Positions 2,502 through 45,187 of a DNA stretch of 64,000 bases are shown in pieces. The notes beneath the pieces were generated by a model. The model ran no database searches, was not told the origin of the DNA, and was given only the letters and a program-made list of their open reading frames with translations. This stretch comes from Limonium bicolor. Lineage: Eukaryota > Streptophyta > Magnoliopsida > Caryophyllales > Plumbaginaceae. Each line of letters opens with the position of its first letter. Positions within the stretch are counted from its first letter, which is position 1. Position numbers and translations under genes: made by a program. The stretch spans positions 42,104,171 to 42,168,170 of the forward strand of contig CM041776.1 of the NCBI GenBank assembly GCA_023374045.1. The letters run 5' to 3'.

Positions 2502-5500
2502 ATGGCAAACTCATGGATGTACAGCGGAAATTTGGATAACAAGTTTCTTGAGGGAGTTGACAAATTTTGCAATGTTTTGGTCGATAATCGACTCCTGCCA
2601 ATAAGGGTTACATATTTTGTCCTTGTATAGACTGCAGAAACTATTTGAAGTATCGAGGGATAGAAAAAATAAAGGAACATTTGATTCGTCATGGTTTTAC
2701 AAAAGACTATGAAGATATAGTCCGGTGGCATGGTCAGAGGGCGGTAGATGTCATGTGTAATGAACAAGAGGAAGTTGAAGATAATCAAACAATTGTGGTC
2801 GATGACCACGACATAGTAGACAATGAACCAGATTACGATGACATTGCTGCAATGCTGGAAGATGTTGAACAAGAGTTTTACAATAGGCCAGACACCTATG
2901 AGACTTTGCTAGATTCATCCAAAACACCGCTGTGTTTCGGGTGTGATCCTACAAAATTGAGTAAATTGAGCGCAGTCTTGAAACTCTTCAATCTAAAATC
3001 GAAATTTGGTTGGAGTGATGTGAGTCTCAGTGCTCTCTTACAAATGATGAAGACCATACTACCAAAGGATAATGTTTTACCAACATCGACTTATGAAGCC
3101 AAAAAATTGATGTGTCCAATGGGTATGGGGTACAAAAAGATCCACGCTTGTCCATCTGGTTGCATTTTGTACTGGAAGGATAATGAATTTGCTGATAGAT
3201 GTCCAGAATGTGGGGAATCACGTTATGCGAGGAAAAACCAAAATGAATGCACTGGTCGTCATAAGGATAAATCCCCTGCTAAAGTGTTGTGGTATTTGCC
3301 CATAATACCACGATTGAAGCGTCTATTTGCAGTTGATAAAGATGCGGAGAATCTAAGGTGGCATTCGACTCACAGAAAAAATGATGGAAAGTTGAGACAT
3401 CCGGCTGATGCGTCCCAGTGGAAAACATTGACATGAAATTTCCTCAGTTTGCTCGCGATCCAAGAAACTTGAGACTCGGTCTGTGTACTGATGGGATGAA
3501 CCCTTACGGTACATTGAGTAGCATACACAGCACGTGGCCGGTATTATTGATGATCTACAATCTCCCCCTTGGTTGTGTATGAAACCTAGACACATTTTGT
3601 TGTCACTTTTGATATCTGGTCCAAAACAACCGGGCAACAAAATAGATGTTTTTCTACAACCATTGATAGATGACCTACAACTCTTGTGGAATGAAGGGGT
3701 GATGGTATATGACTCATTTGGGAAGAGAATTTAACTTGCGTGCTATGTTATATTGCACAATCAATGACTTTCCTGCGTATGGTAATCTTTCTGGTTACAC
3801 AGTCAAAGGTGCATGTGCATGTCCTATTTGTGGTGAGCATAAATCAAATATCCGCTTGAAACATAGTGGGAAGAATGTTTACATGGGTCATCGTAAAATG
3901 CTTCCAAACGGCCACAAATATCGCAAGATGTCGATTGAGTTTGACGGAAAGACTGATCACAGTGTGTCTCGTCCTCCTTTACCAGGTTCAGAGGTGTATA
4001 AAAAGGTGCAAAATATTGTCAACAACTTTGGTCCTTCGACAAGAAACACCAAGAAAAGTGTATGGAAAAAGAAGTCAATCTTTTGGGAACTTGAGTATTG
4101 GCAACATTTAGATGTCAGACATTGTATTGATGCAATGCATGTCGAAAAAAATGTGGGAGAAAAGTGTTATGGGAACCCTCTTGAACATACCAGGCAAGAC
4201 CAAAGATCACATAAAGGGGAGAAAAGATTTGATTGATTTGAAAATAAGGGAGATCTTTGGGCACAAGAACGTGGGAAATGCACGTTCTTGCCTCCTGCAT
4301 GTCACACATTGTCTAAACAGGAGAAGCATAGTCTGTGCAATATCCTCCACAATATCAAGGTGCCATCAGGGTATTCGTCTAACATAAGAAATCTTGTTTC
4401 AATGTCTGATCTGAAATTAGTTGGAATGAAATCCCATGATTATCATGTGTTAATGCAAGACTTTTTAGCTGTTGCAATTCATGGGATCCTACCTGATGCG
4501 GTGAGAAACGCAATCACCAACCTTTGCGTGTTTCTCAAAGCAGTATGCTAAAGTTCACGATGTGGATAATCTAGACAATTTGCAAGCTGTTCTTGTTGTC
4601 ACGATGTGTCAGTTGGAGATGTATTTTCCTCCTTCATTCTTCGACATCATGGTTCATTTATTGGTTCATTTGGTCAGAGAGATTAAAGAGTGTGGACCTG
4701 TATATCTTCGTTATATGTATCCTTTTGAAAGGTACATGGGTATATTGAAGAGAAAATGAAGAATCGTCGTCGTCCTGAAGGAAGTATTATAGAGGGATAT
4801 ATAACAGAGGAAGTTGTTGATTTTTGTACTCACTATTTGGAAGATGTTGAATCCATTGGTCTTCCTAAATCTAGACATGAAGGAAGACTCCAGGGACACG
4901 GTACCGTTGGGAGAAAAATGAAGAGAATTGATATTGAAACCCTTAACAAAGCTCACTTAGTTGTGCTGAGTCACCTTGAAATTGTAGAACCGTATTTTGA
5001 AATGCACCTGACTCTGCTCAGAGCACAAAATCCAACAATGAGTGACATTAGACTAAAAAAGGAGCAGAATAAAACGTTTGTGAAATGGTTCAAGGATAAA
5101 GTTTTTTCGAACACCAGTCAACTACAGTGCCTGCATTAGTGAAGACGTTGGCACTTGGTCCTAATCTTGACGTTGTTTCATACGAAGGGTATGACGTAAA
5201 TGGCTACACTTTTTATACGGAACGGCAAGATCAAAAATCAATGAATCAAAACAGTGGCATCAAGGTTGTGTTACCAGAGTATGTACAATAATGTCACAGG
5301 TATGGGTCAAAATCCAGTGGAGTTGAAACAATCATATTACGGTCGTGTACAAGATATTTGGTTCTAGATTACACCGCATATGAGACTTGTGTGTTTCGTT
5401 GCAACTGGATTGACAACAGAAATGGTTACCGTGAGGAGAACATGGTATGAAACTAGTTCATCTTAGTGGTGCAACACCCACAGTTGAGCCGTTTGTTGTT

Positions 5501-9882: not shown

Positions 9883-12152
9883 AGTGTTCTTGAGCGTTTA
9901 AAGGACTTAGGAATTGTCTTGAAAGAATTAGAGTTTAAATGAGTGAGTTTGATACTCTAAGGTTATGATGGGAGTGTGGTTAAGTCTTGTGCAAGTTTGG
10001 GTAAACAAAGGAAGAATAATGCCTTGTGAGAATCTAAGTGTAAGCTTGAGGAAAATAGAAGGAGTTTATGTAGTGGAGGTGTTGTGGAGCAATAATGCTT
10101 AGGAGTGGTGGTAATGTTTGTGACATAACATTTTGGTTAGTTTGAGTTGTAGGTATGATATACCACTTATAAAACCTAAGGAAAATATTACAAGTGTTAA
10201 GAGATTATGTGAGGAATTGGATAACAAGTTTAGATAAGGAATTAGGCAAGTTTGAGATGTTATTTTGGTATTAGAATATTCCTAAGATCATGTATGAACT
10301 TTGGGTAACGCATGGATGAATAGAACAAGTGCAACCACACTTAGAATAATGCAAATGGTGAAAATCTATAGCTGGTCCGGGACCTAGGTCAGGGTAAAGT
10401 CCCAGACCATGCCAAAAATAGAGCCGAGAATTCATTTAACACCTTGGTCCGGGACTTAAGTCTTGTAGGAAGTCCCGGACCACCCTTTAATTTGCACCCG
10501 GGAGATTCAGCCTAGATTGGTCCGGGACTTAAGTCCCATATAAAGTCCCGGACCACAACATAAAATCAGCCGAGATTTAAACCAAGTATTGGTCCGGGAC
10601 TTAAGGTAAGGACCAAGTCCCAGACCACTCTAAAAATGATGTTTAAGCTTGGAAAATGATAGGAAATGATGGGGATTGTCAGGTATTGATGTTATAAAGT
10701 TATTTAGGACATGTTTGGTGGGTATAATGGCTATTAAGTGGGTGAACAAATATAAGAGATAACGAGAAACGATGCACTTAAAAGTTTGAGTTAAAGCCAT
10801 AAGGACTTTGTGAATAATAATGGGTAAATATTGGTGTCTAAGAAAGTTAAGTAAGTTATGTCGGGTTGAGCTAATTAGTAACCTAAAACTGAATGAATGT
10901 TTTAGGACTTGTGAATTAGGACTTGGAAGGAGATTAAACAAACAATCGCCGACGGTGAACGGTATGGTTTTCTTGTAACCTGCTTGCTAACGAGGTGTCC
11001 CTCGGCTTGTGTACTATTTGTTTATGTGTTCCGACTAAACAAGATTAAGCATGCAACTGGTTTATTATATTTGTTGTGTGTTTTTAAATACAACTAACAC
11101 ACTTGACTTGAGTTAACTTGCTAACTATGTTTAGTAAACAATTGGATGAGATACAGTACTCTTGTTAGGATTTGTTGGTTAATACCCGGTAAGGGTTTAA
11201 CTAACAAGACTTGACTTGTAACTTCTGCTAACCTTAACTTGGGGGGAGTGAGGAATCCGGAATGGTACCGGCACATGTGTATTGGGGGAGGTCGGTATCT
11301 GAATCAGGTCTGGCTTCCAAATTAGACTTGTCTTCGGACTCGTTGCCTAGAGTCAACAAAACGACTCGACCACCCGGACTACTGTTTGAGGTGGGAGGCA
11401 CATTAAGGATGGCGTGGGGGGATATAGCCTACATCCCCAACAAACTAAGAGATGTTGCTTATTTTCTGTAAGTGTACTGCTGCAAGCTAGGGTTATCCAA
11501 ACCCTACAAAAAAATACGCAACGAATTAAGGGCTAACAAGTTCTAATAAGAGAACGGCTGGCATACATGAGTGTAAGAGGAATGTGGACCTAAGGGGTTA
11601 AAATCTAACCCACTTACTTAAGGATGGCTTCTAAGTCATTCATTGTCTTGAACTGTTATTGTTTATTGTGGTTGATGTTATTGCACTTCCTATTTATGTT
11701 GTGTATTTAATCAATCTCCATGCTATCGACAATTAGTCGTCGTAGTCCCGTTAGCTTGGGGGCTATAAGAGAATCGTACCAGCAAAGGTGCTGACCCCCT
11801 TGGGGGCTGTTGTTTACATTTTGCAGGTAAGCGCCCTATGAAGACTCATCTTGAGAGTAGGGGTGGTTGGCCTTAGGATGGGTTTCATATTTTGGGTACG
11901 AGATGCGCGTGTGCACCCGTCCGTTAATATTTAAACTCGTGGGGAATTATGTCGTTTATGATGATACTTGAGATACTATAAACTCGATTGGTATGTATAT
12001 TTTGGATTAGCGGTTGTAAATGTCTAAAGTTCAGTAAGTTCTGTTGTTCAGACCGTGGCAAGGTCCTGGTGTTGGTTTAATTCCACTGTGACGTTTATGT
12101 TTAAGTTGTTAAGTTTGCGATAACCACAATTACCTTAGGACGGGGTGTTACA
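9883..12152 (+). repeat. E1 5' LTR (truncated on the left)
   Basis: Non-coding sequence ends in the typical LTR end GGGGTGTTACA immediately upstream of the PBS. The last 450 bp or so (about 11690-12152) match the end of the 3' LTR (about 19725-20185) closely, including CGACAATTAGTCGTCGTAG and the AGGTAAGCGCCCTATGAAG segment. Upstream of 11690 the two LTRs are not alike. The open frame at 11262-11471 has no recognisable domain and is not called. Confidence 0.75.
10374..10627 (+). repeat. array of four GGTCCGGG/CCCGGACC hairpins in E1 LTR
   Basis: Four imperfect palindromes with arms TGGTCCGGGAC and GTCCCGGACCA (or a one-base variant) lie at about 10374-10410, 10443-10482, 10518-10554 and 10589-10627. 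They are separated by about 35 bp that repeatedly contains GCCGAG. Loops are 12-20 nt. As RNA each would form a stable stem. Similar arrays occur at 789-1041, 36995-37180 and, with different arms, at 23170-23440, 31010-31230 and 34070-34265. Confidence 0.85.
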
Positions 12153-12157
12153 AAAAG

Positions 12158-12169
12158 TGGTATCAGAGC
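12158..12169 (+). other. E1 primer binding site, tRNA-iMet type
   Basis: TGGTATCAGAGC lies five bases inside the LTR end. This is the standard plant PBS complementary to the 3' end of initiator tRNA-Met and marks where minus-strand DNA synthesis starts. It overlaps a perfect 9-bp inverted repeat (ATCAGAGCG at 12162-12170 and CGCTCTGAT at 12177-12185, six-base loop). Confidence 0.92.
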
Positions 12170-13028
12170 GCGGTTACGCTCTGATCGAAGAAATATCGGA
12201 CATAAGAAACCACTGAGTTAGGATATGAGCTAAGACATAAGTAATGGGTTAAGGGTGTGAGAAGTTAGAGTGAGTAGAGTCAGATGACCACTAATGAGTG
12301 TGGATCGTCTTTACCGTCTACGGACGTAATAAAATCCGTGAACCAAAACCATGGTGGATACAAATCTAATGTGGGTTGTGCTTATTCAGATGGCAGGACA
12401 TCCACGAGGAGGCCGAGGCCGTGGTCGCGACGATGATGCTACGGAGATACCGGGAGGGCAGACGATCGTAGAGATCGTGGCTGCCGCATTGGGGCACATG
12501 GGCTATTAGCCTGGTGCACCCCCACCTCCACCGCCACAACCCCGGGAACCAAACTGGGTGAAGAGTCTGGCGGACCTTCGACCCGCGTCATTTCAGGGGG
12601 AGACTGATCCCGCCAAGCTTGAGGTGTACATCTCCGAGCTGGAGACCGCCTTCGAGACCCTTGATGTCCCTGCCGGGATCAAGGTGCGTCTGGCTGCGTT
12701 TTATCTGAAGGGAGCAGCAAGCGATTGGTGGAAGCTGGTGAGGGCCGAGCATGTGGCCAATCCAGACTTCAGCTGGGAGCAGTACACAGCTTTACTACGA
12801 GCCAAGTACTACCCCGCCCATGTTCAGACGAAGAAGCGCTTACAGTTGGATGCGCTAAAGCAGACGAACAAGATGACGGTGGACGAGTATTACTCAGAGT
12901 TCACCGCCTTGCTTCGTCTTCTGCCGGGTCTTGGGTATTCAGACCAGATACTGGTGGGCCGCTTCTATGGCGGGCTTAGCCATCGACTCCGCTACGACAT
13001 GAGGCCAACGAGTTATACTACCTTGCAG

Positions 13029-13110
13029 GTAATGAGAATAATTGAGATATAAATAAGTGAATAAGATTTAGACTTTGAGATATAAGGGAAACTAATACCT
13101 TGGAAAGCAG
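13029..13110 (+). other. putative spliceosomal intron 1 in E1 gag (82 bp)
   Basis: It runs from GTAATG after ...TACCTTGCAG to ...GGAAAGCAG, with a CTAAT branch-like motif about 15 bases before the end. It is AT-rich and contains stops. The exons on either side join in phase 0 (…TTLQ / ECYHA…). The E4 copy has a 91-bp intervening sequence at the same protein position (44758-44848, minus). Inferred from sequence only. Confidence 0.8.
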
Positions 13111-13357
13111 GAGTGCTATCATGCCGCTGCTAAGGTTGAGATAACCGTCCAGCTGAGGGACGAGGACAATGCTAAGAGGAAGAATGCTGGTAAAGGTGCT
13201 GAGAACCAAGGGCAGGGCAGGTACAAGAAGCAGAAGTACCAGCCTCAGGCCCAGAAAGGTCATAAGAATAAGATGGAAACTGAGAAGGCTGCTGAAGAGC
13301 CACTGAAGTTGACCTATGCAATCGCTGCTAAACCCTTGCGCTCAAAGGCGCCAAAGG

Positions 13358-13436
13358 GTAAGGAAATATATTTTAAGTGAGCTGAGAATGGTTGAACAAA
13401 CATTGAGACACAATTACTGATGCCATATGTGATCAG
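13358..13436 (+). other. putative spliceosomal intron 2 in E1 gag (79 bp)
   Basis: It begins GTAAGG after ...CCAAAGG and ends ...TGATCAG. It is AT-rich with a TACTGAT branch-like motif. It is a phase 1 intron lying between the basic linker and the zinc knuckles. E4 has an 86-bp counterpart (44392-44477, minus) at the equivalent position, also phase 1. Confidence 0.8.
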
Positions 13437-13911
13437 GTACTGAGACTGGGAAGGAAGCCGGTGGTGGCTACCAATGACACTACTATTGTCAGCGGTGTCA
13501 CAAGGACCACCCCGGGCTTAACTGTAAGGGTAACAAGGTGGAGTGTAATTTCTGTGGTGTGTTCGGGCACCGAGCCTATGAGTGCTATGGGAACCCGGAG
13601 AGCAAGAATTTCAGGCTCGGTTTCAAGGGCAAGGCTAGGACCGATCATGGTGCTGGATCCGGTGGTCAGAAGGCGACACAACCTGCAGCAAATAAGAACC
13701 CTAGAGTAGTCCAGAAGCCAGGACCCTCTCTACACCTGGTGGACCGGGACGATGAGGCTGAACCCTCGTCAAGGCCAGGTACTGCCATAAACCATTTAGT
13801 GATAAAATTGTCTGCTTACCGCATTTTATGCATGCTTGGGTGAATAATTAAGTTAGATAAGATTAAGACAAGATGAGAATTTAAGAGAGATATAACCTAA
13901 TACCACCTTAG

Positions 13912-14650
13912 AAAACTTCAACATTTGCTATCCCATACCTTCAACACTAAACCCGGAAGAGACCGACATCGAAACCCGAGACTTTCCAACCAAACAATGT
14001 TAGGTTATCCGCCCAGGTATGATTTTATTAAGGGAATACCTGACACCCGACGCACAAATAGCCATCATCAGAAGATGCAGTCAGTTAGGAGTGGACCGGG
14101 AGGTTTCTGTACACCGGAGTACCTAGGAGGAGCAAGGATGAAATTAAAGATGATGAGCTTAGGCAAGGATTGGAATCCGTATGCCAAGACGTACCAAACC
14201 ACGAGAGCACAAGATGGAGTCTCACCACCGAGAATACCCAAAGAGTTCCATCCGGTTATTACACAAGTCATGGAGATCGCTCAGCAATTGGAAGCTGACC
14301 CGATTCCAGACATAAAAGCAGACATCTGCATTGTGAATTTCTACGAGAAAGACTGGCGACTCGGACTACACCAGGATAAGGACGAGACAACGGAGTCTCT
14401 CGAAAGAGGGACACCCGTAGTGTCTTAGCCCATTGGAGACGACGCTGAATTTTTGTACGGCGAGCAGAAGCGTGCAGACCGTGCTAATAAGTTAATACTT
14501 AAGTCTGGAGATGTATTAGTTATGGGAGGAGCATCAAGAATGTTATACCATGGGATTAAGAGAATTAAGCTGAATACAACATCGTCAGCTGTAATTAATG
14601 CGACACATATGAGACCAGGATGGTTAAACCTAACCTTTAGACAATATTAG
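13912..14650 (+). pseudogene. E1 AlkB-like Fe(II)/2-oxoglutarate dioxygenase exon
   Basis: AlkB-family enzymes oxidatively remove methyl groups from nucleic-acid bases; ALKBH1 types act on tRNA, RNA or DNA. The frame starts at 13914 after the splice acceptor (NFNICYPIPS). It contains an AlkB N-terminal strand (VIRPGMILL), YLTPDAQIAIIRRC, then LKMMSLGKDWNPYAKTY, IVNFYEKDWRLGLHQDKDE (H-x-D at 14369-14377), KLILKSGDVLVMGGASR, MLYHGI (second iron His at 14549-14551) and MRPGWLNLTFRQY before TAG 14648-14650. Design length is 245 aa. Damage: TAG at 14001-14003, a one-base deletion near 14093-14096 and TAG at 14426-14428. The E4 copy has the same length. It resembles plant ALKBH1-like proteins more than viral AlkB domains, by my recollection of the motifs. 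Confidence 0.88.
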
Positions 14651-14725
14651 CCATGTAATGTTTTAAGAATGATGTAAGGAATGAGATGTAAGAAAGAAGC
14701 ACATGATGTAAACAGGATGGTTATG

Positions 14726-14731
14726 AATAAA
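14726..14731 (+). terminator. AATAAA polyadenylation-like signal after E1 AlkB stop
   Basis: AATAAA lies 76 bases after the AlkB stop codon, before the downstream acceptor at 14808. E4 has AATAAA at the matching place (69 bases after its AlkB stop). The bases that follow are partly conserved (CAGTGTTG in both). This fits an alternative terminal exon with its own poly(A) site. Confidence 0.5.
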
Positions 14732-14808
14732 ATAACAGTGTTGTTCATATTAATTGTTACGACTCTTGTTATACCATCATTACTCATGAAGCTTGTGAAT
14801 ACAATTAG

Positions 14809-17800
14809 GTTATGGACTCGGTACGGAAGGTGCGCTAAGCATATTTACAGAGGCACAGGCCGACGCAAGCGGTACTATCCTCACCGACACCTTTCCGATT
14901 AATGGGATTGAGGCATCTGTTCTCTTCGACTCAAGGGCCTCGCATACCTTTATCTCGTCATCGTTTGCGAGAAGGTTGGGGCTAGATGCTGATGAGCTAC
15001 CCGACTTTACGGTTACACTCCCGTCTAAGGAGAAGGTTCGTTGCACTCGCTACTACCGAGGAGCCATCATTAGAATTAAAGGGGAAGACTTTCCAGTCAA
15101 TTTTATTGAGTTCAGGGAGTTGGGATTTGATGTTATCTTCGGGATGAACTGGTTGGAGCGGCACAAAGGTCGTATCCTCTGCGCCGAGCATCGACTGTTG
15201 CTCAGGAGTCCGTCTGGGGTAACAATATCATACCGCTAGAGGCCTAGAGAGCCTTCGACCAAGATCATCTCCGCTATGACAATGTATAAGGAACTGAGGA
15301 GGAAGGAAGAAGTATATCTCTGCTATGTCCAGGACATAGAGAGGGACCCCGAGTTTGACCCCGACTTACCGGTAGTGTCGGAGTTCCTCGATCTCTTTCC
15401 ACAGGAACTGCCTAGCTTGCCACCCACTCGGGAGGTAGAGTTCACCATCGAGCTGCTACCTGGAACCGGACCTATAGCTAAGGCACCATATTGCATGGCT
15501 CCGGCAGAAATGAATGAGTTAAAAGATCAGTTGAAAGATTTGCTAGACAAAGGATTCATAAGACCGAGTGTGTCACCATGGGGAGCGCCAGTTCTCTTCA
15601 TGAAGAAGAAGGATGGTAGTCTCCGCCTCTGCATCGACTACAGAGAGTTGAATGCAGTGACTGTGAAGAATAAGTACCCACTACCCCGCATTGATGATCT
15701 GTTCGATCAGTTGTAGGGGGCATCCGTATTTCCAAGATTGATCTCAGATCGGGGTATCATCAGATAGCCATTAAGGAGGGAGATATTGAGAATACGACAT
15801 TCTGGACACGATATGGCCACTATGAATTTACAGTGATGTCGTTTGGTTTGTCGAACGCATTGGCAAAGTTTATGGATCTGTTGAACCGCTTGTTCTGGGA
15901 ACAGTTGGACAAGTCGGTTGTGGTGTTCATCGACGACATATTAATATATTCGAAATCGAGAGCTGAGCATGAGGAACATTTGAGGAGGGTGTTAGAGATA
16001 CTGAGGGAGAACCGGCTTTACGCTAAGTTCTCCAAGTGTGAGTTTTGGCTTGACCAGGTCTCTTTCCTGGGTGATGTCATCTCAGATGCTGGGATCTCAG
16101 TGGATCCAATAAAGGTTGATGCGGTGCGTACCAGGCCGAGACCGAAGATAGTTACCGACATTTGGAGCTTTCTTGGTTTGGTGGGTTACTATCGGAGGTT
16201 TGTTAGGGATTTCAACAAGGTCGCGAAGCCGATGACTAGTCTGATGAAAAAAGATGCACCGTTCGTATGGACGGCTCATTGTGAGACTTCGTTTCAGAGT
16301 TTGAAGAACTCACTGACCACTATGCCGGTTCTGACTATTCCAAACGGTACGGAGGGCTTTGAGGTATATTGTAATGCACCCAGCAGAGGGCTAGGTTGCG
16401 TGCTCATGTAGCATGGCAAGGTGGTGGCATATGCCTCACGCCAGCTGAAGAAACATGAGGAGAACTATCCCACTCATGACTTGGAGTTGGGAGCTGTAGT
16501 CTTCGCTTTGAAGATATGGTGCCACTACTTGTACGGGGTTAGTGTGACGATCTACACCGATCACAAGAGCTTGAAATATGTATTCACTCAGAAGGAGTTG
16601 AATCTTCGATAGAGGAGGTGGTTAGAATTTTTGAAGGACTGTGATATTGACCTCTAATACAGAGAAGGGAAGGCCAATGTTGTAGTTGACGCCCTGAGCT
16701 GTCGAGCACACTCACTCCATTTGCTAGTTTCTTTCTTAAGCTTGGTTGATGAGGTGCGAGAGGCTCAGAGGACCGATGAGTATATGAGGGAAGTTAGACA
16801 GAAGTTGACAGAGGGTACCTTTGAGAGTCAGAAATACGACTTCAGACTTCATGATGATGATCTGATCAGACTTAAGGGCCGGTTATTCATACCACGAGGC
16901 AACACGGATCTGAAAAACCGTATACTTAGAGAATCACACTATTCTTCAGTTTTCATTCTGGGAGCCTCTAAGATGTATAAAGACATGACGAGATACTTCT
17001 GGTGGTCGGGGATGAAGACAGATGTTACCGAGTTCGTTTTGAGGTGTCTCACATGCCAGAAGGTAAAATTGGAGCACTGACGACCAGATGGAATGGTACA
17101 GTCAATGCCAGTTCCAGAGTGGAAGTTTCATGATATCTCCATGGGCTTCGTGGTCGGACTCCCGCCTGCCAGGGGAGGTCTGAACATGATATGGGTTGTG
17201 GTGGATCGCCTTACCAAAGTAGCCCAATTCATATCGATGAAGGATATTTGGAAGGTAACTAAGTTATCTAAGTTGTTTGAGAGGGAAATCATGAAACACC
17301 ACGGGATACCAAATACCATAGTGTCAGATAGAGATACCAGATTCCTTTCAAGGTACTGGAGAGCTACACAGGAAGCGTTGGGTACAGAATTGAAGTTGAG
17401 TACCGTGTTCCATCCTCAGACAGATGGTTAGACTGAGCGTACAATTCATACACTCGAGGACATGCTGAGAGCATGTGCCTTGGACTTCGAGGGCAGTTGG
17501 ATTGACAAGTTGCATCTGATCGAGTTTTCATACAACAATAACTATCACACTTCGATCAAGATGGCGCCTTTCCAAGCGTTGTACGGTAGACCATGTCATA
17601 CACCGCTCTGCTGGGATGAGTCGAGTGAGACAGTCATTATAGGACCAGAATACTTAGAGCAAGTTCAGACTGAGGTTTAGCAAATCAGGGAGAATATGAA
17701 AGCTGCTCAAGATAGGCAGAAGTCGTATGCTGATGTGCGACGACAAGACCTGGAGTTCGTAGTGGGCGATCGGGTATTTCTGTGAGTCTCACCGATGAAG

Positions 17801-18184
17801 GGTGTGTTTAGATTTGGGTAGAAGGACAAATTGAGCCCGAACTTTGTTGGTCCTTATGAGATTACGGAGTGGGTGGGCCTAGTTGCTTACAGGCTAAATT
17901 TGCCCGTTGAGCTGGGTAAAGTGCATGATGTTTTTCGTGTTTCACAGCTAAAGAAATACATGCACCACCCCTCCCATGTGTTAGAGCCTGAGAGGTTGAC
18001 GTTATAACCGAATATGAGATCAGTGGAGATTCCTCAAAGAATCTTAGATAGTAAGACTAGGGACACTCGCCATAAGTCAGTGCGACTGGTGAAGGTTCTC
18101 TGGTCTAACCAGGATGTCGAAGAGGCCACGTAGGAATTATAGGATAAGATGAGATTGAAGTACCCCTCGTTAATTACTAACTAG
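14809..18184 (+). pseudogene. E1 protease-RT-RNase H-integrase-chromodomain, broken
   Basis: From the acceptor at 14808 the frame opens with YGLGTEGALSIFTEAQ. An aspartic-protease motif follows in which the expected D-[ST]-G-A reads DSRA (14928-14939), so the catalytic Gly is lost. RT spans about 15380-16400 with FIDDIL (Asp pair at 15932-15937). RNase H spans about 16420-16710 ([11 protein letters not shown]). Integrase spans about 16900-17680 (HPQTDG, FSYNNNYHTSI, ALYGRPCHTPL). A GPY/F and chromodomain-like C-terminus runs to TAG 18182-18184. In-frame stops include those at 15237, 15713, 16409, 16610, 17078, 17429, 17678, 17784 and 17819; a frameshift lies near 15716-15722. Order and motifs place it in the Tekay/Del chromoviruses. 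Confidence 0.9.
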
Positions 18185-18398
18185 ATCGTCTGTATAGGGT
18201 ACGGGGTGTACCCCTTTTTAAGGGGGGTAGAGCTTCCTCGCTTTTGAGTTAGTAAATGAACATGTTTGTCGTTTTGTGTGGTTGGTGTAGGATGCGGTTT
18301 TGTGTAAGTTATTACACTTGTGGTAAGTTTAAGATGTGTGAATGTGAGTATCGTGAATGATTAAGTACATATGTGAACTTTGGGGACAAAGTTCTTTT

Positions 18399-18411
18399 AA
18401 GGGGGGTAGAT
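18399..18411 (+). other. E1 polypurine tract
   Basis: AAGGGGGGTAGAT directly precedes the 3' LTR start (TGAAATACCCC at 18412). It primes plus-strand DNA synthesis. A second purine-rich copy of the same motif lies near 18218-18230, about 180 bp upstream. E4 has the equivalent sequence next to its 3' LTR at 39242. Confidence 0.8.
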
Positions 18412-20185
18412 TGAAATACCCCAAACCTAGATAAGGTGTTTAAATGATAAACTAAGATATAATAAGGCTAAATAATGCCTTATAAACATTAGGAAACAAT
18501 TTAAACCAAAGAAAACACAAGGAAACACCATAAGAGCAATTTAAGCAAAAATGTGCTCTAAGCTTGGAGTAACTTGGGTTAGCACCCAAATATCATTATT
18601 AGACCTTATTAACATCCTAATGGTCATGTTAAATCAATTACCAAAGAAAACCAAGCTCAAAAACAAGTTAAAACACAAATTGTGCTTTAAAGACCCTTAA
18701 AGCACATTTTTGAAAAATTGTCTTAGAAAGGGGTTTTATGTGGCTAAATGCCCATTATTAATCCTTAATCAACTTTTTACTACTTAGTATCACATTAGGA
18801 AGTCTAAATCAATGGGAAATCAAAAATTTCACAAATATGTGCACTAATTTGTGAATAGTGCCCAAATAAGACTAGTTTAGCATTAAGTCAACATAAGTCA
18901 ATTAGTTGGTCAACCAAGACCACAAATATCTTAAAATTAAGAAGGGGCTGGTTTTTGTAGTGGTGAATAACCACATGAGCTAGCATATTAAGGAAAAGAA
19001 GAGAAAACTTGTAATAGTACTATTTGCTTTTTAAAAGAAAATTTTACCTTTTAAGCCTACCTTCTCTCCTCTTCTTCATTCATTCTCTTCTTCCACGTTT
19101 TTCTTCACCTTCTTCATCCTCTAAAACCGTGAGAACCAGCCCCCATTCTTGCTTCATCTTGCTTTGCCTATAACTTGCTCATTTTAGCTCCAAAATGAAA
19201 ACCAAGCACATAGTTCTCTTAGTTAGCTCAAGCTCTTGCTTTCTATCTTTCCAAATATCCAAAAGCTCCATTTTGGTGCCAAGGCAAACCGCCATTAAAA
19301 GAGAAAAAACAAGCTTGAAGACTTCATTAGCTTCTCTATTCTCTTAAGGTAAGGAAAATGTAAGAAAAATCACCTTTCCACCATTTTTCCTTCTTGACCG
19401 AAAATTACCTTCTAATGGGAACATGTTTTACCCCTTTTTCTAGCTTGTTTCCATTCTCCAAGGACTAGAGGAGGTCCTTCTTGATTCATTTCCAAGCTTA
19501 AGTTAAGACTTCAAAGGTAAATATTCATCTTTATACCTTAAAACACATTTTTAACCTAGGCATGATTCCTTAAGGTTAGTGTATTATTTGGCACTCATGA
19601 GAGTCATTGTATATTGCTTAGAACATTGGAAAGGAAAATTTAATTGGTGGCCGAAAGTCAAACAAGGGAAACCTAAAGAGAAAAGTGTGCGGAGCTTGTA
19701 AAAGAACAAGGTAAATGTCTTCCTACTTATGTTATGTATTTAACCAATCTCCATGCAATCGACAATTAGTCGTCGTAGCCCCGTTAGCTTGGGGGCTATA
19801 AGAGAATCGTACCAGCAAAGGTGCTGACCCCCTCGGTGGATGTTGTTTGCATTTTGCAGGTAAGCGCCCTATGAAGACTCATCATGAGAGTAGAGGTGGT
19901 TAGCCTTAGGATGGGTTTCATATTTTGGGTACGGGATGCACGTGTGCACCCGTCCGTTAATGTTTAAACTCGTGGGGAATTATGTCATTTATGATGATAC
20001 TTGATATACTATAAACTTGGTTGGTATGTATATTTTGGATTAGCGGTTGTAAATGTCTAAAGTTCGGTATGTTCTGTTGTTCAGACCGTGGCAAGGTCCT
20101 GGTGTTGGTTTAATTCCGCTGCGACGTTTATGTTTAAGTTGTTAAGTTTGCGATAACCACGATTAGCTTAGGACGGGGTGTTACA
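18412..20185 (+). repeat. E1 3' LTR (1774 bp)
   Basis: It begins TGAAATACCCC after the purine tract and ends GGGGTGTTACA, an imperfect inverted pair. Only its last 460 bp match the 5' LTR. The first 1.3 kb resembles, in inverted orientation, the 35400-36675 part of the solo LTR B, including the long C/T-rich region around 19060-19150. Its outer edge abuts E4 LTR sequence at 20186. Confidence 0.8.
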
Positions 20186-22748: not shown

Positions 22749-24529
22749 TGTGAGCCTCGATTTTTAAACCCTATCCTTTGTTGATTAGATTGACTAGGAT
22801 CTAGTCGGGTTTTAGGTCCACTTATAACCTAAGATTAATAACTATGTCATATAACATTAATTATTAAAACCTAAGCTAGCTCACTGGAACCTATTATGAG
22901 TCGCCACCTAATTTTTACCTAGATCAAATTAAGAAAGGAGAGATCGGGTTCGGGGGCTTGATATTCGACTTAATTAGGGTTCAATTACTTTCATTACCCC
23001 TAGAAGTCGTTTTTCCTCTACTTAGTTTAATTACTGCTTAATACGAGTCGTTTTTAACCTAAGTGCGTGCTTCTGATTTTTTATTATTTTTAACATTTTT
23101 TGACAGAAAATTAAAGTGGAAACTAAAAATACCTAAACTAGGGTTTCGAAGGCAGAATTAGGTCAAATTTTATTTACGTCCGTAGCCATGGACCCCATGT
23201 CCGAGACCACGGACCCCGGTTAACCTAGTTATACATAAAAGTTGAATTTAAGAGAAAACGAAATTTTGAAAAGTTCGGGGCCACGGACAACTGTCCGTGG
23301 GCCCGGACATTATTTAGAAGAACCTAAAATTTGAAATTTTAAAAATCCCGCCGCCCTCCGTAGGTGTTCGTGGCCACGGACAACCCGTCCGTGGTCTCGG
23401 ACCATAGGTCCGAGGTCACGGACCACCCACGGATAGGGGTTTTCTGGTGGTTCCCGACGGTGTTTTCGACTCAAATTTTATGGGTACGTAGCCTGAAAGA
23501 TTATAAGCACGTTAGTAATTGAAAGAATTCAATTTGAAGTCAAAATTAATACGAAACTTAGCAAACAAGTAACAAGGCAGTAGCTAAAACAATTAGTAAT
23601 ACAGAGGCCGAAAAGAGTTGGTTTGAACCCAAATTTGAGGCAAGACTGATAAGGTCGTAGGGAGTTAGGAAAGTGGAATTTCTACCTGTTTTACCTTTGA
23701 GTTTACAATGATCCTTCACACCGGGATTCGTCGAGTGCTCTGTTGATGGTAGACCGGAAAGGTTTTCGAACCAAGCTTCTTGTTGTTGGTTTTTCTTGCT
23801 GTTCTTCACGTTTTGGTGGTGTTTATGTGGGGTTTTGATGATTGTTGATGCTTTGGGAATTGGAAAACGAACTTAGATAATGATTTTGGGTGAATTTCGG
23901 TATGATTCGGGTGGCCACATGTTGAAAAACGTGAGAGAGAGAGGGGAGGCTATGCTTTCTAACTTCCTAGGGTTCTTGAGCTTGTGAGATTCTCTAGATA
24001 TATCCCTTTATATAGACTTTCTTAAAGATAAAGAAAATCTAGTAAAAGTGAGATTTTTTGGCATTTTAATTAAGTGACTTCCCAAAGGAATTTTGCTGTG
24101 AAATTTTAGCCATGTGTCAAGGATGGCAATTATGATGTTTCTAAAGTGGAATCGACTTTTTAAAATGTTGGAATGTTTTTAAATTCAATTTCTTGTCAGA
24201 TTCAGTCAAAAATTTCTAGAAAATTATTGGAAATTCGAAAAATCAAAATTCCAATGCCATTATGCTTAAAATGTCATCCTCTATCATGGGATAAAATTTC
24301 AAAGCATTTCAAGTTGATTTGAGCATATTTTGGAGGAGAGAGAAAGCCTATAGGAGGTCTTGGAAGCCTTAAAAATTACGAAAACACCCCTAACGATGAC
24401 GAAACTGCTCCCCATGTCTCGGAATGTGCCGATTGAGCCAGAATCCATCATTACTTGATTGGAGTGCCTCTCACAACACCAAAGCCTTATAGACCCTAAC
24501 CAGGGGGGGTCAACATTTTAGGTATAACA
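22749..24529 (-). repeat. E2 left (3') LTR, 1781 bp
   Basis: It matches 30548-36814 with the nested solo LTR removed (about 1789 bp). Its sequence reads TGTGAGCC...GTATAACA. On the internal side a purine tract (GGGGGGCAATC on the minus strand, 24530-24540) follows. A cluster of self-complementary GTCCGTGG/CCACGGAC units lies at 23170-23440. Confidence 0.9.
23170..23440. repeat. GTCCGTGGCCACGGAC-type hairpin cluster in E2 LTR
   Basis: The cluster contains CCACGGACAACTGTCCGTGG, GTGGCCACGGACAACCCGTC, CGGACCATAGGTCCG and GAGGTCACGGACC, several of them overlapping palindromes. The right LTR copy (31010-31230) keeps most of them, with scattered changes in individual arms. Confidence 0.85.
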
Positions 24530-24657
24530 GATTGCCCCCCGTTAACTAGACTTTGTAATGAATATGAGAAGTCTGGTTGATGCTTGAGTGATGCCCCAAA
24601 ATTTCGGATCGTAAATAGACCCTGCATGCCGTTTGAGACTAACAAGCCACATCGAGC

Positions 24658-24900
24658 TATTCTAAGGCACTGACTACCTATAAGTAAAGTGAAATTAAGT
24701 AATGTCAAGCGATTCTAAGGCATTGACAACCTAACAAAGTAAAAATGAAATAATGTCAAGTGATTCTAAGGCGTTGACGACCTAAAAAGTGAAATTGAGA
24801 TAATGTCAAGCGATTCTAAGGCATTGACAACCTAAAAAGTGAAAATGAGATAATGTCAAACAATTCTAAGGCGTTGACAACCTAAAATGTGAAAAACTAG
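24658..24900. repeat. tandem repeat, about 50-bp period, in E2
   Basis: Four to five copies of a unit containing AATGTCAAGCGATTCTAAGG and ATTGACAACCTAAAAAGTG start near 24701, 24752, 24802 and 24852, with a degenerate first copy before them. A short GATGCTGAT microsatellite follows at about 24930-24970. Confidence 0.88.
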
Positions 24901-25690: not shown

Positions 25691-25739
25691 GTGAAAGTGA
25701 GTAAAATGTATGATGGGTCTAAATGAATGTAGAAGGATT

Positions 25740-28149: not shown

Positions 28150-28164
28150 ATCCTGAAGGAAGTC

Positions 28165-39644: not shown

Positions 39645-42600
39645 CTAGTCTATAAACAACTGTGGGTACTTCACCTTCATGTCGTCTTCTAACTCCCATA
39701 TCGCTTCTTTGACATTGTGGTTGGACAATAAGACCTTCACCATTCACACTGACTTATGGCGAGTGTCTCTAGTCTTAGTATCAAGGATTCTCACGGGAGT
39801 CTCGACGTATCTCATCGTCGGCTCAATGGATAATTGCTCGTGCTCTAGAACATGATAAGGATCAACAATGTACTTCTTGAGTTGTGACACATGAAAGACA
39901 TCATGGACACGCCCCAACTCCCTAGGTAAAGCTAACCTGTAGGCTACAGATCCAACTCTCTCAGCGATGGTGTATGGCCCTACAAATTTTGGGCTTAGCT
40001 TGCCTTTCTGGCCAAATCGGATTACGCCCTTCATAGGTGAAACGTGCAAGAACACCTGGTCGCCCACGGCGAACTCAAGGTCTCGTAGTCTCACATCCGC
40101 GTAGGATTTCTATCTATCTTGGGCTGCTTTCATATTAGCTCGGATTTGCTGAACTTCCGCTTGTACTTGCTCGAGATACTCTGGTCCTATGATGACCACT
40201 TCACCCGACTCATCCCAATACAACGGGGTACGGCAATGTCTACCGTATAAAGCTTGGAAAGGCGACATCTTAATCGAAGCGTGATAACTGTTATTATATG
40301 AAAACTCGATAAGATGAAGCTTATCTATCCAGTTCCCCTGAAAGTCTAAGGCACATGCTCTAAGCATGTCCTCGAGTGTCTGGATGGTTCTTTCTGTCTG
40401 ACCGTCAGTTTGTGGATGAAAGGCGGTACTAAGCTTCAATTCAGTACCCAGCGCTTCCTGTGTAGCTCTCTAGTATCTCGAAAGAAACCTGGTGTCGCAG
40501 TCAGATACGATAGTCTTCGGGACTCCGTGATGTCGGATAATCTCCTTGTTGAATAACTCTGCGAGTTTCACCACCTTCTAGGTGTCCTTCATCGGTATGA
40601 ATCAGGCAACCTTGGTGAGGCGATCGACTACTACCCAGATCATGTTGAGTCCTCCCCTGGCAGGTGGGAGTTCTACAACAAAATCCATGGAGATATCATG
40701 GAATTTCCACTCCGGGATTGACATAGATTGTAACATTCCGCCCGGTCTTCTATGCTCAAATTTTACTTTCTGGCACATAAGGCATCTCAGGACATATTCA
40801 GTCACGTCGGATTTCATCCCTGACCACCAGAAGTACCTCTTCATGTCTTTGTACATCTTGGAGGCTCTCCGATGGGCAGATAGTGTAGAACAGTGTGACT
40901 CTCGCAAGATACAATCCCTCAGCTCACCATTGCATCGGGGAACGCATAGCCTACCATTCAGCCAGACCAGACCATCTTCATGCAGTTTGAAGTCATACTT
41001 CCTTTTCTCGAATGTGCCTTCTGTGATTTTCTGTCTGATATTGGTCATATAAGGGTCGCTCAACTACGCGTCTCACACCTCATCAACCAAGCTAGAAGAA
41101 GCGAGTAGCGAATGGAGCGAGTGTGCTCGACGGCTCAGGGTGTCGGCTACAACGTTTGCCTTCCCTTCTTTATACTGTAGGTCGATGTAGTAATCTGATG
41201 AGAAACTCCATCCACCTTCTCTGTCTTAAATTCAGTTCCTTCTGTGTGAAATTGTAAACTTTTGTGGTCGGAGTAGATGGTGATGCTTACCCAGTAGAGA
41301 TAGTGTCGTCATATCTTCAAGGCGAAGACAATGGCTTCTAACTCTAGATCGTGTGTCAGGTAATTCTCCTCATGCTTTTTCAGCTGGCAGGAGGCGTAAG
41401 CTACTACCTAGCCATGTTGCATGAGTACGCATCCCATGCCCTTGCCTGATGCATCACAGTATTCCTCAAATCCCTCTGTGCCCTTTGGAAGAGTGGGAAT
41501 GGGCGCTGAGGTCAATGAGTCTTTTAGGCTCTGGAAGGATACCTCGCACTCGTTTGTCCACACAAACGGTGCATCTTTCTTCATCAATGTTGTCATGGGC
41601 TTAGCAACTTTAGAGAAGTCCTTTACAAACCTCCGGTAATAACCGGCTAGACCAAGAAAGCTCTGGATGTCAGTAATAGTCTTTGGTCTAGGCCATGATC
41701 GTACTGCTTCAATTTTGGATGGATCAACTGAAATACCCGTGATCGAGATGACATGACCGAGGAAAGATACCTGATCTAGCCAAAACTCGCATTTGGAGAA
41801 CTTCGCATACAACTGGTTCTCGTGCAGTGTCTCAAGTACTTTCCTGAGGTGGTTCTCGTGCTCATCTCTGGATTTTGTGTAAACAAGGATATCGTCGATG
41901 AAGACTACTACAGAAGTGTCTAACTGCTCACTGAATAGCCGGTTCATCAAATCCATGAACTTAGCTTGTGCGTTCGACAAACCGAATGGCATGACTGTGA
42001 ATTCGTAGTGACCGTATCTTGTACGGAGTGCCATTTTCTCAATATCCTGCTCTCTGATAGCAATCTGGTGATACCCTGATCGGAGGTCAATCTTGGAGAA
42101 GACTGAAGCTCCTTTCAACTGATCAAACAGATCGTTGATGCGCGGCAATGGATACTTATTCTTTACAGTGATCGCATTCAATTCACGGTAGTCGATGCAG
42201 AGTCGGAGGCTACCGTCCTTCTTCTTCACGAAGAGGACCGATGCTCCCCAGGGTGATACACTCGGGCGTATTGTCGGGAAGGTCACGCAATTGTTCCTTA
42301 AGCTCAGTCATTTCTGCAGGTGTCATACGGTATGGTGCCCTGGCAATGGGACCAGTACCCGGTACGAGATCGATCTCAAACTCAACAACTCTCTGAGGTG
42401 GCATACCAGGTAGCTCTTTCAGGAACACATTTGGAAATTCTGGCACAACTGGCACATCGGCACTGAATTATGGATCTCTCTCCAGATCTTGTACATAACA
42501 TAGATACACGTCATACCCTTTTCTGAGCTCCCGGTACATAGCCATAGCGGAGATGACTATAGTCAAAGGCTCTCTCACTGGCGGTATGAAACAGTAACCC

Positions 42601-43008
42601 CAGACGGACTCTTGAGCAGCAGTCTATGCTCAGCGCAGAGAATTCGCCCCTTGTGCTGCTCCAACCAGTTCATCCCGACTATCAAGTCGAATTCCAACCC
42701 ATTAAATTCGATGAAGGAGATGGGAAACTCTTCGCCCTTGATTTGGATCGTGGCAGCTTGATAATATTTGGTACATCGTACTCGCTCCTTCGACGGGAGA
42801 GTAACCAAGAAGTTTGGTAGCTCATCTGCGTCCAGCCCCAACCTCTTCGAAAATAATTGCGAAACAAAGGTATGAGAGGCGCTGGAGTCAAATAGTATGG
42901 AGGCATCAATGCCATTTACCGGGAAGGTTCCCGTTAAGATGGTACCGCTCTTACCGACTTGTGCTTTGGTGAGGATACTCAGGTTACCTTCGTTACCGAG
43001 TCCACAAC
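39645..43008 (-). pseudogene. E4 protease-RT-RNase H-integrase-chromodomain, broken
   Basis: It opens after the acceptor at 43009-43010 with CGLGNEGNLSILTKAQVG. The protease motif reads DSSASHTF where D-[ST]-G-A is expected. A stop lies just before 42575. RT is best preserved (42286-41408): [48 protein letters not shown] and [12 protein letters not shown]. RNase H is degraded at about 41410-41100. Integrase spans 41063-40110 ([53 protein letters not shown] segment). The C-terminal GPY/F-like part starts at 40094, has a stop at 39744-39746, and a chromodomain-like end (EAIWELEDDMKVKYPQLF) runs to the TAG at 39645-39647. Confidence 0.9.
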
Positions 43009-43150: not shown

Positions 43151-43890
43151 TTAATACTTCTTAAAGGTAAGGTTCAAGCATCCTGGTTTCATGTGTGTGG
43201 CATTGATTATTTCCGGTGGTGCCGTATTCAACTTGATCTTATTGATCCCGTGATACAGCAACCTTGGTTTTCCACCGATGATTAGGACATCTCCTGATCT
43301 CAATACCAGTTTCTCTGCGAGGTCCACACGCTTCTGCTCGCTATACGAATATACAACGTCATTACTAATGGACCAAGACACTACGGGCACTCCTTGTTCA
43401 AAAGATTCCGTTGTCTCGTCCTTATCGTGGTGTAACCCAAGCCGTCCTTCTTTCTCATAGAAGTTGACGATACAAAGATCCACTCCAAGTGCGGGGATTG
43501 GATCATATTCACATTGTTGTGCAAGTTCTACAGCTTGTGTAACAAGCATTTGGAACTCAGTGGGTATTGTTGGTGGTGTCGCTCCGTCTTGCGTTCGTGT
43601 CTTTTGGTATGTCCTGGTATAAGGATTCCAATCCTCTCCCAAGCACATCATCTTCAGCTTTATTTTCGCTCCACCGGGGAATTCGAGTGTGTAAAATCCT
43701 CCTGGACCCGCTCCTAGTTCGTTACATCGTCAGATGATGGAAATTTGTGCTTCCGGTGTCAGGTATCCTTTTAATAAAATCATACCTGGTCAGATAACCT
43801 GACACTGTTCGTTGGAGAAATGGTGAGTGATGATGTCGTCGTCTTCATGGTTTGGGTTTGAAGGTATCGGGTAGCAGATATTAAATCTAC
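43151..43890 (-). pseudogene. E4 AlkB-like Fe(II)/2-oxoglutarate dioxygenase exon
   Basis: Better preserved than the E1 copy: 245 codons without frameshift, broken only by TGA codons in the N-terminal part (within VI*PGMILL and within SII*RCNELG). From 43651 the frame is open to TAA 43151-43153. Motifs in order: GPGGFYT, LKMMCLGEDWNPYTRTY, IVNFYEKEGRLGLHHDKDE (H-x-D), PVVSWSISND, KLVLRSGDVLIIGGKPR, LLYHGINKIKLNT (second His) and MKPGCLNLTFKKY. The last conserved Arg of the NLTFR motif is Lys here. It follows an acceptor ...CAACCATAG| at 43891 in a frame that continues from gag exon 3. The predicted activity of the ancestor is oxidative demethylation of a nucleic acid; substrate unknown. Confidence 0.88.
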
Positions 43891-44046
43891 CTATGGTTGT
43901 AAATTTTATCTACCGTGAGTTCTAGTTTCAACTTGTTCATTTCATGCTCAAATACGTACTTCAACTCTACTTACTCATACATTCATTCAAACAAGTACTT
44001 CGATACTTAGACATGCTTTTCCAGGATTAAGGGTTATAGTCAATAC

Positions 44047-45187
44047 CTAGGCCTGACTTAGTACCGGTCCCGTCACGGTCAATAATGTGCAAGGCCGGCT
44101 GCCTCTGCGGTGCGCCCTTCTGAGGACCTCGGGACCCCTGACCCTGTGAGGCCTGCTGGGCTGGAGCATTGCCATATACAACCTCCTTGCCTTCCTTCTG
44201 CTTGTAGCCCTGGTAGTTGCCCTTAGGCTTCGAGCTCTCCGGGTATACATTAGCACGGTGCCCTGGTTTCCGACAGTTGATGCACCAGATTTCTCTACCT
44301 TGGCAATCTATGCCGGGGTGATCTTGGTTGCACTTTCTATAAACATAGCTACGGCCGTCAGAGTAGTTCTTGCCATATCCGGAGCCAGAACCTGTGGCTT
44401 TGAGTGTTAGCACAATTGGTGCGGTGATATTAATTATTGTATTTACACATATACGAGTTTAAATTTAGGAGTTTTACCCTTGGGCGGGTGTGATCTCAGT
44501 GGCTTTGCAGCCACCAGCGTAGAGTAAGCTAGCTGAAGTGCCTCAGCTGCTTTTCCCTTCTCAGCATGGGCACTGCTCTCACTGGGGGTGTTCTTCTGTG
44601 ATTGTTGAAAGAATTTTCCCTACTTCTTCTTCCAGCTCTTGCCCTAGTTCTGCTCCTCTGAGTTAGTGTTCTTGCTATTGGCTTTGCGCTTAAGCGCCTG
44701 CTCCTCATCTCTTAGCTGACAAGTGATTTCCATGCGAGATGTAGCGTGATAGCACTCCTGAAGTTTCAGGTATTTGGTGATGCTCTTGCTCATTACAGTA
44801 ATGATTTAAATATTGACAATGGCATTAAGGGTTCGAACCAACGTTTACCTGAAGGGAGGTAAATCAGGTGTACCTCATACCGTACCGAAGGCGATGGCTC
44901 AGACCACCATAGAAGCGATCGACCAAGACCTGGCCGGTGTACCGAAGGTCGGGTAGGAGACGTAGAATGGAGGTGAAGGTGTGGTAGTACTCATCCACTG
45001 ACATCTTTTCTGTCATCCTCAAGGCGTCAAGCTCTAAACGCTTCTTGGTTTTGACGTGTTCGGGGTAGTACTTTGATCGGAGAATTACGGTGAAAGATTC
45101 CCAATCAAATGAGGGGTCATCAACGTACTCATGCTTCACTAGCTTACACCAATCCATAGCAGCATCTTTGAGGTAGTATATTGCTAT
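44047..45187 (-). pseudogene. E4 gag, 5' truncated, three exons
   Basis: Exon 1 remnant runs from 45187 to 44849 (open from MDWCKLVKHEYVDDPSFDW through LRLLPDLRYTGQVLVDRFYG). Exon 2 is 44757-44478 (ECYHATSRMEITCQL, basic/Gln-rich, with stops near 44650 and 44625). Exon 3 is 44391-44047 with CNQDHPGIDC and CINCRKPGHRANVYP, where the last zinc-knuckle Cys has become Tyr. Introns are 44758-44848 and 44392-44477. Exon 3 ends in phase 1 at CCTAG|GTATTG. The start codon and N-terminus are missing because an LTR is inserted at 45188; the five bases GCTAT (45183-45187) are its likely duplication. Confidence 0.83.

Follow-up and report, generated by a model that had tools for sequence, protein, structure and literature searches.

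We analysed a 64,000-nucleotide stretch of the Limonium bicolor genome (assembly GCA_023374045.1, contig CM041776.1, positions 42,104,171 to 42,168,170; hereafter the window), which holds two copies, E1 and E2, of a Ty3/gypsy long terminal repeat (LTR) retrotransposon family encoding an AlkB-type 2-oxoglutarate (2OG)-Fe(II) dioxygenase domain behind gag. E1 is a damaged element at 11686-20185 on the forward strand. Its parts are listed here in window coordinates; L numbers denote further loci of the genome.

11686..12152 (+): 5' LTR, the part pairing with the 3' LTR (94.6% identity to 19719-20185; Kimura two-parameter (K2P) distance 0.056)
12158..12169 (+): primer-binding site TGGTATCAGAGC, 5 bases past the LTR end, read from the sequence
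12390..13028 (+): gag exon 1, capsid region; probable start at 12390, stop at 12507-12509, splice donor at 13029
13029..13110 (+): gag intron 1 (GT..AG), missing from L033, L047, L048 and L050
13111..13357 (+): gag exon 2, Lys/Arg-rich by eye
13358..13436 (+): gag intron 2 (GT..AG), missing from L047-L050 and, to within one base, from L034
13437..13778 (+): gag exon 3, zinc-knuckle region; weak zf-CCHC_3 match of 14.9 bits, below the cut-off
13779..13911 (+): intron 3, from gag exon 3 to AlkB; donor GT and acceptor AG in 5/5 E1-type copies, missing from L033
13912..14651 (+): AlkB exon (2OG-Fe(II) dioxygenase), disrupted by a frame change and two stops
14809..15236 (+): protease exon, RVP_2 90.7 bits; conserved alternative acceptor AG at 14807-14808
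15240..16411 (+): reverse transcriptase (RT)/RNase H, in pieces; RVT_1 78.4 bits on 15698-16408
16658..17680 (+): integrase (IN), in pieces
18053..18190 (+, end approximate): chromodomain-region remnant
19719..20185 (+): 3' LTR, the part paired with the 5' LTR

In a profile search, 12510-13049 matched Retrotrans_gag (71.8 bits) and Ty3_capsid (57.3 bits); gag and pol of E1 carry further stops. The primer-binding site is presumably of the initiator-tRNA-Met type. At an assumed rate of 1.3e-8, the LTR divergence gives E1, the only copy dated, an age of ~2 million years. Within the 10-kb loci fetched from elsewhere in the genome, no LTR pair of the AlkB family itself was found, the single pair (in L036) framing a nested element.

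An earlier note on this DNA, made from the sequence alone, had placed an AlkB/2OG-Fe(II) domain in a Ty3/gypsy element, after the zinc-knuckle region and before the protease; matches to PF13532, RVP_2 and RT bear this out. Two pieces of the E1 exon matched PF13532 (2OG-FeII_Oxy_2; gathering cut-off 31.2 bits) independently of each other, 13901-14425 (+) with 56.0 bits (E 7.8e-15) and 14429-14647 (+) with 62.8 bits (E 6.6e-17), so that the profile check proposed in the note came out positive for both. The H-x-D motif (His codon 14369-14371, Asp codon 14375-14377), the distal His (14549-14551) and the closing NLTFRQY, which is followed by the stop at 14649-14651, lie in the sequence where the note had read them. 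The start that it gave for the segment, 13912, immediately follows a conserved intron acceptor, while the bounding splice sites that join the segment to gag had escaped it. Where a single frameshift had been assumed, the exon holds two stops, at 14001-14003 (in the frame joined to gag) and at 14426-14428, as well as a frame change near 14090.

The second copy, E2, lies on the reverse strand with the same order of parts.

44047..44391 (-): gag exon 3, zinc-knuckle region
43891..44046 (-): intron 3, from gag exon 3 to AlkB
43151..43890 (-): AlkB exon, PF13532 106.1 bits; rice 5xeg E 3.1e-55
42578..43008 (-): protease exon, behind the alternative acceptor

The main AlkB domain of E2 is open over 192 aa (43154-43729, -), the exon holding two in-frame stops farther upstream; a search for E2 LTRs found none. 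Amino-acid identity between E1 and E2 is ~62% in AlkB, 65% in the aligned part of gag, 74% in the protease, 66-92% in the RT pieces and 66-81% in the integrase pieces. These identities indicate that AlkB travelled with the other parts of the element. PF13532 scores were higher still in further copies (147.9 bits in L002, 158.6 bits in L009). The iron ligands H160, D162 and H220 are invariant in 37/37 rows of an alignment, A1, comprising 5 retroelement, 5 unnamed, 21 plant or algal and 6 bacterial-type rows, and R250 is nearly invariant. In a second alignment, from which 6/40 loci fell out and in which two places were entered twice, the distal His is present in 35/35 rows and the Arg of NLTFR in 33/35; these 35 rows were chosen by a motif containing the first His and the Asp, so that the invariance of those two residues there is not independent.

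The family is widespread in the 2.92 Gb assembly (2,686 contigs). A search with the E2 AlkB gave 47,781 loose first-look candidates; among the 150 best-scoring of these, a choice biased to intact copies, all matches were significant and 140 had no internal stop by our count. A pattern of E2-type gag exon 3 plus splice donor, with at most 2 mismatches, was found at 3,759 places, not each checked for AlkB, and its reversed control at 0. Around AlkB, 20 loci of 10 kb were fetched: the zinc-knuckle region lay upstream in 20/20, the gag capsid in 19/20, and the protease lay downstream in the same orientation in 19/20. The possibility raised in the earlier note that the AlkB segment was a one-off insertion is thus set aside. 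Some loci have oddities: L027 runs into N, L036 has a nested element, L038 is rearranged, and in L037 another sequence replaces gag exon 1 (by eye). At least three groups of copies can be told apart: E1-like ones, E2-like ones, and a third group whose AlkB is 57-58% identical to that of E2, with L038 apart at 54%. Behind the integrase of L021, the one copy tested, a chromodomain match falls just short of its cut-off (Chromo PF00385, 24.2 bits against 25.1; E 3.2e-5); the clade name Tekay, taken from the earlier note, is a putative label. Among individual copies, an E1-type AlkB with 93% protein identity to E1 lies ~61 kb before the window start (G000:C1:42042920-42043258, -) and is the best match to E1 after E1 itself among the matches listed. 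L038 has a natural 531-aa open frame (2962-4554, +) in which AlkB leads directly into a protease that is missing its N-terminal part, and L044 has an E1-type AlkB with an open frame, its upstream gag being not alignable to E1 gag around introns 1 and 2.

In this context, AlkB looks like an exon: as read from the copies, gag exon 3 is joinable in frame either to AlkB or, skipping AlkB, to the protease and Pol. Three introns, each about 79-156 bp long, interrupt gag in the E1 and E2 types. The GT and AG of intron 3 are present in all 16 E2-type copies that have the intron and in 5/5 E1-type copies, and the AG of the protease acceptor in 16/16 readable E2-type and 5/5 E1-type copies. Frames were counted in 14 of the 17 E2-type copies, leaving out L030 and L036 (a changed residue missed by the motif) and L033 (intron absent). 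Joined to AlkB, exon 3 gave an open frame in 14/14 of these and in 5/5 E1-type copies; joined to the protease, it did so in 12/14 (L027 has N, L031 a stop) and 5/5, respectively. An intron in front of AlkB is likewise present in L037 and L039 of the third group and in L038, with exon 3 and AlkB in frame in 3/3; L039 lacks intron 1 and has another intron in gag (by eye). In L014, L018, L037 and L039 a Pol frame different from that of AlkB stays open as far as the AlkB stop or past it, inconsistently between copies; frameshifting could replace splicing in some third-group copies such as these.

Splicing at these sites very probably left traces in the genome itself. Introns 1 and 3 are exactly absent from L033, which keeps intron 2 and reads from gag exon 3 into AlkB in a single open frame, and L034 lacks intron 2 to within one base. 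The junction of exon 3 with the protease, predicted before searching, was found at 9 genome places (4 exact, 5 with one mismatch), and the junction of exon 3 with AlkB at 3, including L033; the reversed control gave 0 in both cases. Six of the nine exon 3-protease places were fetched (L045-L050). Introns 1 and 2 and the whole AlkB part are missing from L047, L048 and L050, intron 2 and the AlkB part from L049; in L045 and L046 the AlkB part is absent and introns 1 and 2 are retained. In L045-L047 gag exon 3 meets the protease exactly. The copies with introns removed or with either junction very probably derive from spliced RNAs that were reverse-transcribed. A gag exon 1 tree (28 rows, root placed by us on the E1 type) has L048, L049 and L050 scattered among AlkB-bearing copies (starred support for L049 only), and L045-L047 fall outside the clade of all other E2-type rows (100/100). 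The latter position would fit a history without splicing, in which the exon 3-protease copies descend from ancestors that had no AlkB and AlkB was inserted exactly there later. This we consider very unlikely, because E1-type copies and the more distant third group both have AlkB, which makes its loss in L045-L047 the simpler reading; L048-L050 stand inside the AlkB-bearing copies, and the absence of introns 1 and 2 from L047, L048 and L050 would be unexplained by an insertion of AlkB. The simplest account is that spliced RNAs were retrocopied several times and that one such copy gave rise to a small subgroup without AlkB.

The ratio of nonsynonymous to synonymous substitution rates (dN/dS) of AlkB averaged 0.151 over 210 pairs from 21 E2-type copies and 0.129 over 45 pairs from 10 third-group copies, values biased down by the choice of copies on AlkB protein score; L002 and L009 had been removed from this set as duplicates of L021 and L037, respectively, whose places in the genome they share. 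The protease, which was not used for choosing, gave 0.179 in 12 of the same loci (66 pairs), AlkB of those 12 giving 0.123, and the first RT piece gave 0.078 (10 loci, 45 pairs). The second RT piece and IN of L036 belong to the nested element and raise the proportions of synonymous differences (pS) obtained for those parts. Between E1 and E2, AlkB has dN 0.21 and dS 2.5, synonymous sites being saturated between groups, this pair included; the differences number 42, 32 and 94 at codon positions 1, 2 and 3 (185 codons). Judged by these ratios, AlkB is under purifying selection (dN/dS 0.13-0.15). They also bear on whether AlkB is a passenger, meaning a piece of host sequence that was captured and then multiplied along with the element while having no function. 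LTR elements commonly capture pieces of host genes, and an AlkB-less subgroup exists. Nevertheless, the AlkB ratio is near that of the protease, the active-site residues are retained, and a single AlkB clade spans element groups whose AlkBs share only about 54-62% identity, leaving a passenger very improbable. With many copies, a shared gag and protease context and such ratios, we rejected both a one-off insertion and a passenger.

The type of enzyme was approached through its solved relatives. Rice OsALKBH1 (5xeg, E 3.1e-55) is nearest to the E2 AlkB; E. coli AlkB follows at 1e-15 to 1.7e-13 and mammalian ALKBH1 at about 1e-6. A sequence search of PDB retrieved neither an ALKBH5 nor an FTO chain, even with a threshold as loose as E 10. 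An AlphaFold2 model of the L002 AlkB (predicted local distance difference test score, pLDDT, 92.1) superposed on OsALKBH1 with a template modelling (TM) score of 0.91-0.92 by target and 50-51% identity, on E. coli AlkB with a TM score of about 0.84-0.89 by target, and on viral structures with 11-20% identity (50 viral matches listed). The link to the AlkB domains of flexiviruses suggested in the earlier note is not supported, and a viral origin was rejected, the listed viral matches reaching 11-20% identity against 50% for OsALKBH1; a scan of IMG/VR with the E2 AlkB found no relative. An ALKBH5/9/10 type, whose sequences were not in our trees, is not supported, OsALKBH1 being the best match and no ALKBH5 chain appearing up to the same E value.

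In an AlkB tree rooted on a green alga and one unnamed eukaryote row, 13 retroelement and 5 unnamed rows are united (100/100), and within the land plants this 18-row side is sister to 23 angiosperm host rows. When bacterial-type rows were included, the tree likewise united the retroelement AlkBs with P0001-P0005 (24 rows, 86/77) and left the bacterial rows outside. The angiosperm host rows form their own side in both trees (98/92 with bacterial-type rows, 94/92 alga-rooted), and the retroelement AlkB is not nested within it. Many of the 120 host relatives listed are named DNA N(6)-methyladenine demethylase, a few ALKBH1C- or ALKBH1D-like, and the captured part starts near the FDIC motif, without the host N-terminal region. 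The tree thus points to what is likely one capture from the plant ALKBH1C/D lineage, perhaps before the split of the sampled monocots and eudicots. P0001-P0005 are five unnamed database proteins in the retroelement AlkB clade, on contigs of up to 26.6 kb, and are likely the same kind of element elsewhere. Several other ALKBH1C/D-like proteins, from liverworts, algae and unnamed sources (P0188, P0202-P0209), have an extra PF23134 and in several cases also PF06221, which are absent from the listed angiosperm proteins.

Taken together, these data lead us to think it probable that the family, with its ALKBH1C/D-like AlkB, uses alternative splicing to make either Gag-AlkB or Gag-Pol and packages a predicted demethylase that would act on its own RNA or single-stranded cDNA. 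What is read from sequence are the conserved splice sites, both in-frame joinings, the intron-less and junction copies, the active site, the fold model, selection and the tree. Three RNAs would be formed: the unspliced genome, a Gag-Pol mRNA and a Gag-AlkB mRNA. With AlkB fused to the Gag end, following the nucleocapsid, the enzyme would be carried into the virus-like particle, and there it would demethylate RNA or single-stranded cDNA of the element itself. Among the separate parts of this proposal, the retroelement AlkB is likely an active demethylase; a Gag-AlkB protein is probably made and packaged; and we lean slightly towards the element's own nucleic acid as the substrate. Rice ALKBH1 reportedly acts on N6-methyladenine (6mA) in single-stranded or unpaired DNA and R-loops (PMC10469495), and E. 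coli AlkB on 1-methyladenosine (m1A) and 3-methylcytosine (m3C) (PMC544882); a particle copying RNA into single-stranded DNA offers substrates of this kind.

Several observations weigh against this proposal, besides the selection bias and saturation given above. The AlkB exons of E1 and E2 are themselves both damaged, and E2, which was not chosen by AlkB score, has a dN/dS of 0.249 against the 21 copies. The acceptor of intron 1 is AA in L026 and L030; that of intron 2 is changed in L041 (E1 type), L044 being not alignable there. A small subgroup (L045-L047, 3/3 sampled) is without AlkB altogether, so that AlkB is not strictly needed or is supplied in trans. The stem of the retroelement AlkBs is long (0.55), making a long-branch effect possible, and the timing of the capture is read from the tree. 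Finally, a search among annotated proteins of 539-1,715 aa gave 24 hits, of 547-1,128 aa, and the Pfam column showed a retroelement domain joined to AlkB in none of them.

The site and substrate of the enzyme could also be others. As Gag-AlkB or as free AlkB, it might work outside the particle, where cytoplasmic removal of N6-methyladenosine (m6A) would free element RNA from stress granules. The protein of the orchid Ogre element strips m6A in vitro (PMC9289625) and AtALKBH9B demethylates ONSEN RNA (PMC12786077), stress-granule release having been proposed for the former and reported for the latter, a host protein. The Limonium enzyme, however, is nearest to ALKBH1C/D-like proteins, with OsALKBH1 as best fold match and the PDB search void of ALKBH5 and FTO, and its joining to Gag points to the particle; we regard this alternative as unlikely.

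A second alternative keeps to the genomic RNA and its primer: the enzyme would repair m1A and m3C that block reverse transcription, or act on m1A58 of the initiator-tRNA-Met primer. The AlkB fold is closest to OsALKBH1 and E. coli AlkB, and E1 has a primer-binding site (12158-12169) that we take to be of the corresponding type. Human ALKBH1 is distant, at 19-22% identity, and, judging from retroviruses, removal of m1A58 would lengthen plus-strand strong-stop DNA and maybe harm the element. Although ALKBH1 reportedly acts on tRNA, this role does not seem likely to us.

Action on DNA after integration or at R-loops of the element, where removing 6mA or altering chromatin would serve expression, requires nuclear entry of Gag-AlkB, and the level and role of 6mA in plants are disputed. 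Rice ALKBH1 does remove 6mA from R-loops and weakens repression by Polycomb repressive complex 2 (PMC10469495), and we nevertheless hold a nuclear role to be improbable. Returning to the packaged enzyme, a bolder version of the proposal, which we put forward only tentatively and rather doubt, would describe an old Ty3 chromovirus lineage, perhaps pre-dating the split of the sampled monocots and eudicots, that switches by splicing between Gag-Pol and a Gag-ALKBH1-type protein and carries in its particle an eraser acting on genomic RNA, tRNA primer or nascent cDNA. It would be the first retroelement with a packaged nucleic-acid demethylase.

Elsewhere in the window, LTR pairs also lie at 22749-32202 (93.0% identical) and 47585-62510 (98.6% identical). 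The frames inside both resemble Ogre/Tat-type gag or zinc-knuckle frames (by eye), tandem-like internal repeats occur at 25182-25683 and 52636-53596, and no AlkB or E1-like RT match was found within either element.

A second AlkB-bearing LTR retrotransposon, with another enzyme type in another position, suggests that erasure of methyl marks may pay for retroelements. If the enzyme is indeed spliced onto Gag, its site of action, be it particle, cytoplasm or nucleus, becomes directly testable, and with it the role of methylation in plant retrotransposons; switching between Gag-AlkB and Gag-Pol would moreover give the element an unusual means of adjusting how much structural protein it makes relative to enzymes.

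Betaretroviruses have a dUTPase between nucleocapsid and protease, an enzyme of nucleic-acid care within the particle that is made by frameshifting. It occupies the same place in the polyprotein as the Limonium AlkB; the enzyme is a different one, and frameshifting stands there where splicing stands here. With rice OsALKBH1 (5xeg, 5xoi), the Limonium domain shares 50-51% identity, the catalytic-domain fold, the HxDxDE site and the FDIC motif or a sequence close to it. Most of the listed plant ALKBH1C/D-like host proteins have a long N-terminal region, whereas the retroelement copies begin near FDIC and form a sister clade. Plant LTR elements are generally intron-less, with exceptions such as Ogre and EVADE, according to a 2025 review (PMC12786077). 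As is proposed for the Limonium family, Ogre, EVADE and BARE use introns and alternative splicing to make different Gag and Pol proteins; their splicing yields subgenomic or short-Gag RNAs (PMC12786077), whereas the Limonium choice would add an enzyme to Gag. Tekay chromoviruses of sunflower (PMC11728184) are chromodomain-bearing Ty3/gypsy elements that also have a conserved extra protein, in 500/523 elements. Their extra open reading frame (ORF) lies at the 5' end and encodes a mostly disordered protein without similarity to known domains; that of Limonium is a catalytic-type AlkB domain behind gag.

The closest parallel is found in orchids. The earlier note had known of no LTR retrotransposon encoding an AlkB; such elements were in fact already described in 2022, in Phalaenopsis, as Ogre-type elements with an ALKBH5-like ORF2 whose product removed m6A in vitro (PMC9289625). 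In that paper, the domain was undetected in the consensuses of its other plant genomes (121 assemblies in all), and the orchid case is the sole AlkB-bearing one named in the excerpts of the 2025 review (PMC12786077); our literature search, confined to open-licence PMC papers, found no further AlkB-bearing LTR retrotransposon. The orchid element Gypsy_Pa_2799 resembles the Limonium family in that both are Ty3/gypsy elements of plants, code for an AlkB-family dioxygenase and have multiplied together with it (PMC9289625). We compared the two by the published description. Gypsy_Pa_2799 is of the Tat/Ogre type, 25.5 kb long, with a dual RNase H and a tRNA-Arg primer, and has its ALKBH5-like AlkB at the C-terminus of a separate ORF2, with Gag-Pol as one ORF (PMC9289625). 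The Limonium family, in contrast, has a chromodomain match just under the cut-off (L021), which weighs against a Tat/Ogre placement, and a primer site that we assign to the tRNA-iMet type, and its ALKBH1C/D-like AlkB lies between the zinc-knuckle region and the protease (19/20 loci), joined to Gag by an intron. Since enzyme type and position differ, and probably the element type too, the Limonium AlkB likely represents a separate, second capture relative to the orchid element.

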